Shown: piece after piece, positions 15,909 through 22,335 of the stretch
How the letters are laid out: each line of letters opens with the position of its first letter
Numbering within the stretch: position 1 is the first letter of the stretch
Assembly: GCF_900176005.1 (NCBI RefSeq)
Contig: NZ_LT838272.1
Location: 1,011,587 to 1,075,586, forward strand
Source of the DNA: Thermanaeromonas toyohensis ToBE
Lineage (GTDB): Bacteria > Bacillota > DSM-521 > Neomoorellales > Neomoorellaceae
Length of the DNA stretch: 64,000 nucleotides
Direction of reading: 5' to 3'
Program-made: the position numbers and the translations under genes
Notes under the pieces: generated by a model
Told to the model about the DNA's origin: nothing
The model's input: the letters and a program-made list of their open reading frames with translations, nothing else
Database searches by the model: none

Positions 15909-16913
15909 ATGTTAAAGATTAGGCGGGATAAATTGCCTCAAGTTTTATCAATATGGTCGGAGGGGGCTACGGTCTATATTCCTCAAGAAGCGGATGGCAT
16001 CAGCACCTTCCGCCCCTGGACTGGGCAGACAGAAGTTAATTTTAAGCCGGGAAGCACAGTTGTACCGCCTAAAGAGTTATTTTTCTTACGGACAGAAGAA
16101 ATGTACCGGTACCGCGTAGAAGGCCAGGCAGCCTTCCTAGAGGAACTTCCTCCCCCCCAAGAAAAACGAGTATTGGTGGGGGTCCGCTCTTGTGATGCCC
16201 GGAGTTTCTTACTCCTAGATGAGGTTTTCTTAACTAAAGGTTATATAGATGAATTTTACCATAAGCGGCGGGAGAACACCTTGATAGTGGCCCTAGCCTG
16301 TCGGGAACCTCTAGACACTTGCTTCTGCACCTCCCTAGGGGTAGATCCTGGCCGGGCTGAAGGGGTGGATATTCAAGCCTGGGAAGGAGAAGATGGCTTT
16401 CTTTTAGAAGCCACCAGCGAGACGGGAAGGTCGTTGCTGGAAAAGGTGAGGGGTCTCTTGGTAGAAACGTCCGAGGAAGTTCCTGCTGGTGTCCGTCCTC
16501 GCCTCGAGGTGGAGTTAGAAGGGGTTACGGAGAAGCTGCAAAGGATGTTCGAGCATCCCTTCTGGGATGACCTATGGCATAAGTGCGTAGGTTGTGCAGC
16601 CTGTACCTTCCTTTGCCCTACCTGCCATTGTTTTGATATCCAGAGCGAAAATAGGGGTAACTGGGGCTTTAAGTTCAGATGTTGGGATTCGTGCATGTTT
16701 CCAGAGTATACCCGTATGGCTGGCGGCCATAACCCCCGGCCCACAAGAAAAGAAAGGGTACGCAATCGCATTTTACACAAACTCCAGTATTTCCCTGAAC
16801 GTTATGGCAAGTTAGGTTGTGTAGGTTGCGGTCGCTGCTTGGACCGCTGCCCAGTGCATATGGATATAACGAAAATAATCCAGGCCATAAAGGAGGTGGC
16901 CTTGGATGGCTGA
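15909..16913 (+). CDS. flxB: FlxB-like iron-sulfur subunit (AsrA/HydB-type)
   Basis: 334 residues from ATG 15909, six bases after GGGAGGTG. N-terminal region (VLVGVRSCDARSFLLLDEVF, ALACREPLDTCFCTSLG) matches the AsrA-type domain. Two [4Fe-4S] motifs follow: CVGCAACTFLCPTC and CVGCGRCLDRCPVH. It should link the FAD of FlxA to FlxC. A GTG at 15900 is inside the ribosome-binding site. It overlaps flxA by 8 bases. Confidence 0.82.
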   Translation: MLKIRRDKLPQVLSIWSEGATVYIPQEADGISTFRPWTGQTEVNFKPGSTVVPPKELFFLRTEEMYRYRVEGQAAFLEELPPPQEKRVLVGVRSCDARSFLLLDEVFLTKGYIDEFYHKRRENTLIVALACREPLDTCFCTSLGVDPGRAEGVDIQAWEGEDGFLLEATSETGRSLLEKVRGLLVETSEEVPAGVRPRLEVELEGVTEKLQRMFEHPFWDDLWHKCVGCAACTFLCPTCHCFDIQSENRGNWGFKFRCWDSCMFPEYTRMAGGHNPRPTRKERVRNRILHKLQYFPERYGKLGCVGCGRCLDRCPVHMDITKIIQAIKEVALDG

Positions 16914-17739
16914 AAACTTTGGACAGGTCAATCCGCTGGTACCCCAGCTAGGACGGATTATAAATATTGTCGAGGAGACCCCGGATATAAAGACTTTTTA
17001 TATAACTACTGATCAGGGTAAACCCTTTACTCCTTTACCAGGTCAGTTGGCTATGTTATCCTTATTAGATGTAGGGGAGGCCATGTTTTCCATCACTTCC
17101 CAGGGGCCTGACCACTTGGAGATATCCATTAAGAAAGTGGGTACCCTCACAGAGGCCCTCCATGAAGCCGAGATAGGCCAGACTGTTGGTATCCGCGGAC
17201 CTTATGGTAACGGGTTTCCCCTGGAAATGTTTTATGGGAAGGACGTACTTTTCATCGGCGGCGGTATAGGGCTGGCCCCTGTCCGTTCCTTGATCAATTA
17301 TTGTATCGAACACCGGGATAAGTTTGGACATTTGTGGATCATCTATGGTGCTCGCTCTCCGGCGGATCTCTGCTTTAAAACCGACCTCTTTGAAAACTGG
17401 CCTAAAGTGGAGAACTGCCGGGTGGATGTGACTGTAGATAAAGGAGATGCTACCTGGACGGGACACGAAGGTTTTGTTCCTGCCTTTGTGGAGGAGCTTA
17501 AGCCCACGCCTCAAGGCAAAGTGGCGGTAACCTGCGGGCCGCCCATCATGATCAAGTTTGTCCTGCAGGTTTTGGAGAGATTGGGTTTTAAAGACGACCA
17601 AATTGTTACTACTTTGGAGATGCGTATGAAGTGCGGTATTGGGAAATGCGGGCGCTGCAACTTAGGGAGCAAATATGTGTGCTTGGATGGCCCGGTGTTC
17701 ACCCTAGCCCAGCTTAAACAGTTACCCAATGAGTACTGA
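16906..17739 (+). CDS. flxA: FlxA-like FAD/NAD(P)-binding subunit (AsrB-type)
   Basis: 277 residues of the ferredoxin-NADP reductase superfamily. A beta-barrel FAD domain (FTPLPGQLAMLSLLDVGEA; GIRGPYGNGFPL) precedes the NAD-binding domain (LFIGGGIGLAPVRSLINY; TCGPPIMIKFVLQVL). The C-terminus CGIGKCGRCNLG...YVCLDGPVF provides a [2Fe-2S] site as in DHODH electron-transfer subunits. It is the likely NADH entry point of the complex. NADH versus NADPH cannot be told from the sequence by eye. It overlaps the next gene by 11 bases. Confidence 0.85.
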   Translation: MAENFGQVNPLVPQLGRIINIVEETPDIKTFYITTDQGKPFTPLPGQLAMLSLLDVGEAMFSITSQGPDHLEISIKKVGTLTEALHEAEIGQTVGIRGPYGNGFPLEMFYGKDVLFIGGGIGLAPVRSLINYCIEHRDKFGHLWIIYGARSPADLCFKTDLFENWPKVENCRVDVTVDKGDATWTGHEGFVPAFVEELKPTPQGKVAVTCGPPIMIKFVLQVLERLGFKDDQIVTTLEMRMKCGIGKCGRCNLGSKYVCLDGPVFTLAQLKQLPNEY

Positions 17740-18484
17740 TCTCCATGTTCATGGCTTGGCCCACACCGGTCCGCCCCATACAGTAGAACAGCTCTGGCCC
17801 TATGTTGAGGAAGCCCAAAAGCAGGGTCTAATGGAGCTCGGTTTTGCTGAGCACGATGAATACCTTTATGGTTTAGATTTTCGGGTTTTTGAAGAGCTGG
17901 CTCGCTTATCCCCGATAAAAATAAAAAAGGGGTTGGAGGTGAGTTTCCGGCCTGAAAGGTGTGATTTAAAGGCCATTGCCTCCCGCCCCTGGGATTACCT
18001 TATCGCTTCTGTTCACGATATCGGTCCCTGGGGTTTCGATAGCCCGGGCGGAAGAAGCTTTTATGCTGACTGGGATATGGACGAGCTATACTTTACTTAT
18101 TTTGATTTGGTTGCCCGGGCTGCTTCTACCGGTTTTTTCCAAATTATTGGACACTTGGATCTGATAAAACTATATGGCCACAAGCCGCGGCGATCTGTTG
18201 CGGAATTGGCCGAACCGGCCCTTAGGGTTATCGCCCAGGCTGGTGTAGCGGTAGAAGTAAATACTGCAGGCTTATATAAGCCAGTCGGGGAAATCTACCC
18301 TTCAGTAGAGTTGTTACAGCGCTGCTTTGAGCTGAATATTCCGGTTACCATATCCTCGGATGCCCATAACCCAGAGGAGGTGGGTAGGAGCAGGGAGAAA
18401 GCAGTTCGCTTACTTAAGAGAATAGGCTATACCCAACTGGTCACTTTCAGGGAGAGAAAATTGGAGGTTGTTTCCTTAAAGTAG
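17729..18484 (+). CDS. PHP-domain phosphoesterase (histidinol-phosphatase-like)
   Basis: 251 residues. Metal ligands of the PHP fold are visible: DLHVHG (HxH), FAEHDEY, KKGLEVSF, ASVHDIG, IGHLDLI and SSDAHNP. Such proteins hydrolyse phosphate monoesters, including histidinol phosphate; no histidine-biosynthesis gene is nearby. It overlaps flxA by 11 bases and is almost surely co-translated with it, which is unusual for this enzyme. A link to the Hdr/Flx complex is not evident from the protein itself. Confidence 0.8.
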   Translation: MSTDLHVHGLAHTGPPHTVEQLWPYVEEAQKQGLMELGFAEHDEYLYGLDFRVFEELARLSPIKIKKGLEVSFRPERCDLKAIASRPWDYLIASVHDIGPWGFDSPGGRSFYADWDMDELYFTYFDLVARAASTGFFQIIGHLDLIKLYGHKPRRSVAELAEPALRVIAQAGVAVEVNTAGLYKPVGEIYPSVELLQRCFELNIPVTISSDAHNPEEVGRSREKAVRLLKRIGYTQLVTFRERKLEVVSLK

Positions 18485-18540
18485 TAGAAAGCCCAGTAAT
18501 TTATTTTATAGGGCCAAGTTAAAGGGAAAGATTATTGGTA

Positions 18541-18680
18541 ATAGGGCTTAAGGGGAGTAGCCGCCGGAGGTTTTCCAGGCTGTTGGGGCTGGAAAAGAAC
18601 CGATCTTTCCGGTACCAGGGTTCGTCAGCACGGCTTTAAGCCCGGACCTGGTTTGTTTAAAAGGCGAGACCTTACCGCCC
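18541..18680 (+). promoter_or_regulatory. Manganese-type riboswitch (yybP-ykoY)
   Basis: The leader of the downstream exchanger has the family's fixed blocks in order: AAGGGGAGTAGCC (18550-18562), GTTCGTCAGCACGG (18620-18633) and AAGGCGAGACCTT (18661-18673). The Escherichia coli mntP leader carries the same GGGGAGUAGCC, CGUCA and GGCGAGACC pieces. An inner hairpin CTGG...GGCTGG and TTCCAG/CTGGAA pairing fill the arms. The GAGACC block is shared with the terminator stem just downstream, so ligand binding should prevent termination (an ON switch). Confidence 0.82.
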
Positions 18681-18715
18681 AATAAAGGGGAGGGTGGAAG
18701 GTCTCTTTATTTTTT
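18666..18715 (+). terminator. Riboswitch-controlled intrinsic terminator
   Basis: GAGACCTT (18666-18673) pairs with AAGGTCTC (18698-18705), continued by CCGCCC (18675-18680) with GGGTGG (18692-18697), A18674 bulged. A T-rich tract follows (18706-18715). Its 5' arm is the conserved aptamer segment, so aptamer and terminator exclude each other. Confidence 0.88.
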
Positions 18716-18734
18716 GATGGAGGTGGGAAAGCTT

Positions 18735-19739
18735 ATGGTAGACCTGGTATTGCTCCTTATTAGTCTCGGTGTTATCCTTTTAGGGGCTGAAGTGTTCACT
18801 AACGGTGTGGAATGGTTAGGTAAAAAGCTTAACTTAGGTGAAGGAGCGGTAGGTAGTATTTTGGCAGCTGTAGGGACCGCCCTTCCTGAAAGCATGATCC
18901 CTGTGGTGGCTATCCTATTGGGAGGGGGCCATGTAGGAGAAGAAGTGGGTATAGGAGCTATTTTGGGAGCGCCTTTTATGCTTAGTACTCTGGCTTTTTT
19001 TATCACGGGGGTGGCTGTAATTGCTTACCGGGGGCGCCGCCCCGACTTCCCCCGTATGCGCCTTAACACAGTGATCATGGGGCGCGACCTTAGGTTTTTT
19101 TTACTCGTTTATGCTATAGCTATTCTGGCTGCTCTGCTTAAAACCCATCTATGGAAACAGATAGTAGCCTTTTTCTTGGCTATAGCCTACTTCACTTATG
19201 CCTATCTCACAGTAACCCAGGAAAGTGGCAACAACGAGGAGGAAGAATTACATCCCCTTTATTTCGCCAGGCGTAGCGAAGATCCCTCTCTAGGTCTGGT
19301 GGTGCTGCAAGTTTTGGTAGCCCTTGGATTGATTATAGGGGGGGCTAGGATCTTTGTAAGGGGCGTGGAACATCTATCTAGCTTATTAGGCGTACCAGCC
19401 TTTGTATTATCCCTCATTATAGCGCCCATAGCTACAGAGCTCCCGGAAAAATTTAATAGTATAATCTGGATAGGAAAGGGTAAGGATACCTTGGCTTTAG
19501 GCAACATTACTGGGGCCATGGTCTTCCAGAGCTCCCTTTTGCCTGCCTTGGGGATAACTATGACCAGCTGGGATCTTACTCCGGGAGCTATGATTAGTGC
19601 AGCCCTGGCTATTCTTTCGGCAGGCATGGTTTTCTGGCAGATCCGCCGGAAGAAGTATCTCACACCCTATACCCTCATGAGTGGTGGGGCCTTTTATATG
19701 GTTTTTGTAATTTTGGTCTTCAGCGGGATTATAAGGTAG
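18735..19739 (+). CDS. Sodium/calcium exchanger family (CaCA) membrane protein
   Basis: 334 residues, about ten membrane segments in two homologous halves. The alpha-repeat motifs are GTALPESMIPVVAILLGGG and APIATELPEKFNSIIW...GNITGAMVFQSS, with the acidic ion-site residues present. GGAGGTGG (18719-18726) sets ATG 18735; starts at 18714/18717 would lie before it. Because of the manganese-type riboswitch, the exported ion may be Mn2+ or Ca2+ rather than Ca2+ alone; this is inference. Confidence 0.88.
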   Translation: MVDLVLLLISLGVILLGAEVFTNGVEWLGKKLNLGEGAVGSILAAVGTALPESMIPVVAILLGGGHVGEEVGIGAILGAPFMLSTLAFFITGVAVIAYRGRRPDFPRMRLNTVIMGRDLRFFLLVYAIAILAALLKTHLWKQIVAFFLAIAYFTYAYLTVTQESGNNEEEELHPLYFARRSEDPSLGLVVLQVLVALGLIIGGARIFVRGVEHLSSLLGVPAFVLSLIIAPIATELPEKFNSIIWIGKGKDTLALGNITGAMVFQSSLLPALGITMTSWDLTPGAMISAALAILSAGMVFWQIRRKKYLTPYTLMSGGAFYMVFVILVFSGIIR

Positions 19740-21251: not shown

Positions 21252-21650
21252 ATGAAACAAGTAAACAGGCGGATGACAAAACAAAAACGGTTAATATTAG
21301 AAATATTGCGCAGTACCAAGTCCCATCCAACAGCTGATTGGATTTATGACCAAGCTCGTAAAGTGCTCCCAAGCATTAGCTTAGGTACAGTTTATCGGAA
21401 CCTGGCTGTCCTAAAAGAAGAGGGGGAAATTATGGAGCTGAACTATGGCAGTACTTATAGCCGCTATGATGGTAACCCTCAGAATCACTATCACTTTGTA
21501 TGCCTTAAGTGTGGTCGGGTCGAGGATGTAGATATGCCCGTGTGTTCTGAATTGGATAAACAGGCGGAAAAGACCAGGATAGGAGAGGTCTATTACCACC
21601 GATTAGAATTTTATGGTCTTTGCTTGCATTGTCAAAGTGGAGGGATATAG
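21252..21650 (+). CDS. perR: Fur/PerR-family metal-dependent regulator
   Basis: 132 residues. The N-terminal winged helix (RMTKQKRLILEILRSTKSHP, ISLGTVYRNLAVLKEEG) is followed by the dimerisation domain with HYHFVCLKCG and GLCLHCQ, forming the CxxC...CxxC structural zinc site. The regulatory-site region SRYDGNPQNHYH has an Asp and His as in PerR, favouring peroxide sensing over iron sensing, but Fur cannot be excluded. The next gene starts one base after the stop codon. Confidence 0.8.
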   Translation: MKQVNRRMTKQKRLILEILRSTKSHPTADWIYDQARKVLPSISLGTVYRNLAVLKEEGEIMELNYGSTYSRYDGNPQNHYHFVCLKCGRVEDVDMPVCSELDKQAEKTRIGEVYYHRLEFYGLCLHCQSGGI

Positions 21651-21651
21651 T

Positions 21652-22335
21652 TTGGCCAAGGAAACGTGGAAGTATCTCCAGCAGATACCGGTTTTTGCTG
21701 ATCTGGAGGAAGAAGAGCTTAAAAAGATCGCTGACCTGGCTTTAACCAGACGTTATCCTAAAAATGCCTATATTTTTTTTGAAGGAGAGCCGGGGAGCGG
21801 GTTTTATTTTGTTAAATCTGGAGCCATCAAGCTCTTCCAAGTACTAGAAGATGGACGGGAAAAGATCCTCCACTTTGTGCGGGAAGGGGAGATCTTCGCT
21901 GAGGTTGTTCTTTTCGACGGGGGCCCTTATCCTGCTACTGCCCAGACCCTGGAAGATACCGAGGTGGGCTACATCCGCAACGAAGATATGGAAGATCTGC
22001 TGCGTAAGCACGGAGAGATAGCGGTAAAAATTATTAAAGTGATGAGCCGGAGGCTCAGACAAGCCCAGATTCATATTCGGGACTTGGCCCTTAAGGGTGC
22101 TTATGGCCGGCTGGCTAGTACGCTACTTAATCTAGCAGAAGAATATGGAGAAAAGAAAGGGGAAGGGGTGACTATCGTTCTCTCTTTAAGCCAGCAGGAA
22201 ATAGCTAATCTTATCGGCACATCTAGAGAGACGGTGGCTAGGATTTTAAGCGAATTTAGGCGCTTGGGAGCCATTAAGGTGGATAGGCAGCGCATTACGA
22301 TAGTTCGACCAGAACTTCTTAAGGATTGGTTTTAG
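21652..22335 (+). CDS. Crp/Fnr-family transcription regulator
   Basis: 227 residues from TTG 21652, with GTGGAGGG 7 bases upstream inside the perR-like gene. The N-terminal cyclic-nucleotide-binding barrel (FFEGEPGSGFYFVKSGAIKL; FAEVVLFDGGPYPATAQTLE) precedes a long dimer helix and a C-terminal helix-turn-helix (LSLSQQEIANLIGTSRETVA). There is no N-terminal Cys cluster, so it is not a classical oxygen-sensing FNR. Ligand unknown. Coupling to the PerR-like gene suggests a shared redox or stress stimulus. Confidence 0.85.
   Translation: MAKETWKYLQQIPVFADLEEEELKKIADLALTRRYPKNAYIFFEGEPGSGFYFVKSGAIKLFQVLEDGREKILHFVREGEIFAEVVLFDGGPYPATAQTLEDTEVGYIRNEDMEDLLRKHGEIAVKIIKVMSRRLRQAQIHIRDLALKGAYGRLASTLLNLAEEYGEKKGEGVTIVLSLSQQEIANLIGTSRETVARILSEFRRLGAIKVDRQRITIVRPELLKDWF

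Follow-up and report, generated by a model that had tools for sequence, protein, structure and literature searches.

Organization of the locus

The window analysed here, a stretch of 64,000 nucleotides from Thermanaeromonas toyohensis ToBE, contains a PHP-family phosphatase gene followed by a riboswitch of the yybP-ykoY type, an intrinsic terminator and a gene for a transporter of the CaCA superfamily (Table 1). A 60-nt spacer separates the phosphatase stop codon (18484) from the first riboswitch block. The initial annotation had described three conserved yybP-ykoY blocks, and all three were found where it placed them; the third stretch reads GGCGAGACCUU when counted from 18663. Both loops of the class are present, L1 as GGGGAGUAG / GCGAGACC and L3 with the invariable Mn-coordinating adenosine, which here is A18627. 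The terminator hairpin spans 18666-18705 and is followed by UUUAUUUUUU. Its 5' arm is GAGACCUU, which bears out the earlier proposal that the terminator stem reuses the conserved GAGACC segment. All of the first 8 bases of this arm are paired, 7 T occur among the next 8 bases, and the hairpin is present in both the minimum-energy and the centroid structures of the single-strand fold.

Table 1. Features of the riboswitch-transporter locus (window coordinates).
Feature	Position	Strand	Basis or remark
PHP-family phosphatase gene	17729-18484		Upstream of spacer and riboswitch
yybP-ykoY-type Mn2+ riboswitch aptamer	18546-18677	+	R1 and R2 matches; sole match in genome
P1.1 5' strand AAGG, switch helix; partner CCUU 18670-18673	18550-18553	+	Sequence
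GGGGAGUAG block, L1 5' side	18552-18560	+	Near-invariant among relatives
P2 with long additional hairpin UUUUCCAG/CUGGAAAA	18561-18613	+	Unique to window copy among aligned copies
P3 leg including L3; outer helix CCAGG/CCUGG	18615-18651	+	Both-side changes in 6 of 9 P3 pairs
UCGUCAGCACGG block	18622-18633	+	Sequence
Adenosine matching invariable Mn2+-coordinating A (A41 in L. lactis, A48 in X. oryzae)	18627	+	Alignment position
GCGAGACCUU block: L1 3' side, P1.1 3' strand and terminator start	18664-18673	+	Sequence
Intrinsic terminator GAGACCUUACCGCCC / GGGUGGAAGGUCUC and U-tract	18666-18715	+	Mutually exclusive with P1.1
Shine-Dalgarno GGAGG	18719-18723	+	Sequence
CaCA-superfamily transporter, 334 aa, proposed Mn2+ exporter	18735-19739	+	PF01699, NCX_Mj profile, AlphaFold

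The transporter gene likely starts at the ATG at 18735, with the GGAGG at 18719 as its ribosome binding site; the ORF listing opens it at an upstream TTG (18714). An AsrB-like flavoprotein subunit gene and the PHP phosphatase gene lie upstream (window 16906-18484), and both are kept in the relatives L001-L006. One or the other also precedes several homologues that lack the riboswitch. PHP enzymes are metal-dependent, so a tie of the phosphatase to manganese is possible. Downstream of the transporter, at a distance of approximately 1.5 kb, a FUR-family regulator is followed by an overlapping CRP/FNR-type regulator (21252-22335).

Identification of the riboswitch class

An RF00080 covariance search had been proposed in the initial annotation as a check on the riboswitch class. 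This search, specified beforehand, had the outcome that the annotation had named as refuting its proposal: RF00080 gave no match at the gathering score in the whole window, nothing at E<=10 across 18480-18760, and no match anywhere in the 3.33-Mb genome. At orthologous leaders the same model produced sub-threshold matches (L045, 39.2 bits, E 4e-7; L052, 31.8 bits; L020, 27.5 bits; L053, 24.9 bits). We therefore did not accept RF00080 as sole arbiter, since it misses copies in orthologous positions that are found by the two models described below.

The first of these, R1, is a covariance model built from 13 orthologous leaders with the window excluded. It scores the window element at 67.4 bits (E 3.7e-12), the next-best match in the window reaching 13.9 bits, and the same site is its only match in the 3.33-Mb genome. 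R1 also recovers Mn riboswitches before UPF0016, P-type ATPase and TerC genes; in E. coli it finds mntP at 32.1 bits and, marginally, alx (21.1 bits, E 0.11). The second model, R2, was made from 12 Mn riboswitches that precede P-type ATPase, TerC and UPF0016 genes and E. coli mntP, with no CaCA-linked copies among them; the sequences were aligned through R1, so that the structure of R2 is borrowed from R1. R2 recognizes the window element at 50.6 bits (E 2.1e-10; next-best window match 12.0 bits) and E. coli alx at 26.1 bits, and its first match outside the riboswitch class appears at E 0.11. Because both models, each free of the window sequence, find it, the element belongs to the yybP-ykoY class even though RF00080 overlooked it, and the negative result is a sensitivity failure of one model rather than absence of the element. 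With its cut-off, RF00080 misses a considerable proportion of the Mn riboswitches of clostridia. The DUF1646/Na+ riboswitch class was rejected, as Rfam gave no match to it and the conserved blocks are of the yybP-ykoY kind. Matches to mir-553 and SSRC10 fell far below the cut-offs and were set aside as chance or shared-terminator matches.

The window copy resembles the RF00080 class, as represented by L. lactis, X. oryzae and E. coli mntP/alx, in its L1 and L3 sequences, its invariant adenosine, its P1.1/P1.2/P2/P3 layout and a P1.1 helix that rivals the terminator. It differs in scoring below RF00080 detection, in its extra P2 hairpin and in having no clear P4. The long P2 insertion and the want of a clear P4 are the likely cause of the RF00080 miss. 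In the crystal structures P4 contributes to a four-way junction, and no clear P4 hairpin distinct from P3 was found in the linker of the window or of L001-L006. The extra P2 hairpin (18568-18608) is absent from L001, though the L001 transporter is 90% identical.

The low RF00080 score and the unclear P4 might also point to a yybP-ykoY variant with specificity for another ion. We regard this as very improbable: the Mn-specificity adenosine and both loop sequences are intact, the canonical Mn riboswitch model R2 recognizes the window, and an obvious P4 is also wanting in some copies before canonical targets, such as L089 and L102.

Conservation of the leader structure

A protein search returned 80 loci that carry a gene of the same CaCA subfamily. 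The same three blocks lie upstream of the CaCA gene in 16 of these, and R2 matches occur in 17, the additional one (L046) about 850 bases upstream; the count of 17 is affected by some of the 80 loci being short on the upstream side. Since most of the 80 loci are without the element, manganese control is not universal in the subfamily.

The proposed structure (P1.1, P1.2, P2, P3 and an inner P3 hairpin) was evaluated on 13 leaders, window excluded, using alignment A4; the MAFFT sets A2 and A3 were dropped for poor helix register. Base pairs are formed in 94.8% of cells, and 8 pairs changed on both sides. The covariation score was 0.326, compared to a shuffled mean of 0.149 (0/500) and to 0.02-0.09 for slid versions of the structure. 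P1.1 is 98% paired in the 13 relatives, both-side changes are seen in 6 of the 9 P3 pairs, and a terminator with the GAGACC segment as its 5' arm accompanies every CaCA-linked copy examined. Together with the two window-free models and the conserved Mn-binding adenosine, this covariation substantiates the earlier assignment to the manganese-type class.

These observations also bear on whether the element is a chance resemblance or a decayed riboswitch, its hairpin doing no more than terminate the PHP-phosphatase operon upstream. Such a reading would fit the negative RF00080 search. It would also fit the region from the PHP stop at 18484 to the aptamer, which shows no clear promoter; no sigma-70 match was found just upstream of the aptamer in the window. 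The reading is hardly credible against E-values of 3.7e-12 and 2.1e-10 from models that exclude the window, and against the retention of the leader by every one of the 7 members of the clade that includes the window copy (Thermanaeromonas, Moorella and one MAG). Several relatives moreover show promoter-like TTGACA/TATGAT boxes, identified by eye, just upstream of the leader.

Predicted switching mechanism

Members of the yybP-ykoY class bind Mn2+ at the L1-L3 interface, where N7 of an invariable adenosine (A41/A48) contacts the ion, and L1-L3 docking steadies the weak P1.1 helix, which favours read-through (PMC6754395). In the window, P1.1 and the terminator cannot coexist, because both use CCUU 18670-18673. 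At low Mn2+ the GAGACCUU segment would pair with the downstream arm to form the terminator, and transcription would stop before the CaCA gene. Mn2+ bound between L1 and L3 at N7 of A18627 would promote docking and stabilise P1.1 (AAGG/CCUU), sequestering CCUU 18670-18673; the terminator would then be blocked and the CaCA gene read. From class membership we infer that Mn2+ is the ligand of the window copy and that the element acts as an ON switch, since P1.1 steadied by Mn2+ excludes the terminator.

The CaCA protein and its ion site

The downstream gene had been called a Na/Ca exchanger homologue, and its product does belong to the CaCA superfamily: PF01699 matches at E 2.8e-24 (86.2 bits), with two Na_Ca_ex stretches above the gathering cut-off. 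The calcium/sodium antiporter model TIGR00367 scores 76.6 bits, below the NCBIfam cut-off of 179.65 bits. A profile of NCX_Mj, the Na+/Ca2+ exchanger of M. jannaschii, matches at E 2.5e-13. The AlphaFold model has 10 helices (pLDDT 88) and gives TM-scores of 0.76 to CAX and 0.59 to NCX_Mj, a difference that may be one of conformation. With NCX_Mj and the CAX H+/Ca2+ exchangers the protein shares the 10-TM CaCA fold, the alpha repeats and the core glutamates; in profile and family alignments E52 and E238 correspond to E54 and E213 of NCX_Mj.

The remainder of the site is altered. Residues S51, S77, N81, S210, S236 and D240 of NCX_Mj, which serve that exchanger for Na+ and Ca2+ binding, are replaced by A49, A79, L83, E235, A261 and Q265. 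The Na+-site positions have thus become Ala, Leu or Gln, with E235 as an extra Glu, and the Ser/Asn/Asp ligands of NCX-type Na+/Ca2+ sites were not found in the window protein in alignments to NCX_Mj. Except for A49, the substituted residues are invariant across 42 homologues. The missing Na+ ligands speak against 3Na+/Ca2+ exchange. Export of Mn2+ by the protein would instead have H+ or some other ion as the coupling partner in place of the 3 Na+ of NCX; H+ in this role is a guess.

Recurrence of the riboswitch-CaCA association

A gene-blind RF00080 run on 61 genomes identified two more CaCA genes of the subfamily (L086, 37.1 bits; L107, 30.8 bits). Upstream of other members RF00080 scores above its cut-off, in Burkholderia arboris (67.6 bits), B. 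cenocepacia (66.6 bits), Aeromonas caviae (64.9 bits) and Novosphingobium (51.5 bits). Among 110 high-scoring R2 matches in Bacillota, the downstream genes encode P-type ATPases (30), TerC (24), UPF0016 (19), the altered-site CaCA subfamily (10) and canonical CaCA proteins (3), with antisense NRAMP genes at 2 and 22 left unclassified, at least 6 of which are TerC-like by eye; these shares are rough, because the matches were picked by score. The initial annotation had regarded a CaCA gene as an unusual target for this riboswitch. It is indeed a minority target (about 13 of the 110 sampled Bacillota riboswitches), but a recurrent one that is found across phyla.

When presence of the riboswitch is mapped on an 82-member tree of the subfamily, 9 changes are required, at least 7 of them forced by well-supported branches, so the riboswitch-CaCA link has been gained or lost repeatedly. 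Of the evidence for manganese handling by the protein, this recurrence is the strongest. A precedent is BP3410 of B. pertussis, a gene of the CaCA superfamily that is controlled by a Mn-responsive yybP-ykoY riboswitch and for which Mn export was demonstrated; cells without functional BP3410 hold about 5-fold more Mn (PMC8546581). In BP3410, as here, a Mn riboswitch precedes a CaCA-superfamily gene for which Mn export is proposed despite a calcium annotation. The organism is distant, and the comparison is made at the level of the superfamily. The recurrent link across phyla and the BP3410 precedent (PMC8546581) strengthen what had earlier been a hint of Mn export.

A riboswitch that is real might nevertheless control a protein that mainly moves Ca2+ or another divalent ion, with manganese control as cross-talk. 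Kinship to PF01699 and TIGR00367 and the CaCA fold agree with a Ca2+ substrate, as do three CaCA genes with canonical-type GTSLPE/GNxxGSN-like motifs that likewise lie behind R2 matches (L195, L196 and L236), from which it follows that Mn control is not confined to the altered-site subfamily. We consider this explanation unlikely, given the replacement of the NCX_Mj Na+/Ca2+-site residues by A, A, L, E, A and Q, and given that BP3410 exports Mn while added calcium left its expression unchanged (PMC8546581). Mn2+ is most likely the ion exported by the window protein. Overall, we hold it highly probable that 18546-18715 is a transcriptional yybP-ykoY Mn2+ riboswitch reading out a CaCA gene whose product is most likely a Mn2+ exporter of non-NCX type.

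Mn export by a CaCA protein under a Mn riboswitch is already published for another organism (PMC8546581). The additions made here are modest, namely the Bacillota members, a possible ion-site signature and the observation that RF00080 fails on such copies. The altered-site subfamily, with motifs GTALPE...GAILGAP / ATELPEK...GNITGAMVFQ, spans Bacillota, Chloroflexota, Armatimonadota and Pseudomonadota, and probably haloarchaea. With slightly less than even confidence, we suggest that its rebuilt Na+/Ca2+ site marks a dedicated Mn2+ exporter that is not Na+-coupled, the riboswitch-linked members revealing the substrate of the clade. Members are annotated as sodium/calcium antiporters, and the RNA context suggests that at least many deal with manganese. 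Such a role would mend the annotation over several phyla, and the substituted residues provide a clear starting set for studying how a CaCA site is retuned from Ca2+ to Mn2+.

Other manganese-related genes

A census of transporters in the genome by family searches identified one CaCA gene (that of the window), an MntP homologue, two TerC genes and one PF00690-type P-type ATPase; UPF0016 and NRAMP genes were not found. In the R1 search of the genome, none of the other Mn-transporter candidates lies behind a detected Mn riboswitch. With these candidates present, the window protein is not necessarily the principal Mn exporter, and deletion of its gene may give a mild phenotype.

Several R2 or Mn-riboswitch matches in other genomes have different neighbours. 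In L087, L174 and L155 (genomes G025, G071 and G165), a Mn riboswitch and terminator point towards the 3' end of an NRAMP (MntH-like) gene in convergent orientation, and read-through would therefore run antisense to a Mn importer. The same convergent arrangement has been reported for Carboxydocella (PMC9943018); L155 comes from another family (f63 rather than f7). In L158 and L177 (G392 and G267), an R2 match precedes a gene that by eye resembles the oxaloacetate decarboxylase beta subunit (Na+ pump), an unexpected target. A pair of LemA-like genes follows another match (L112, G025:C35), and two more matches (L207 and L209) precede a zinc-metallopeptidase (YugP-like) gene, again as judged by eye.
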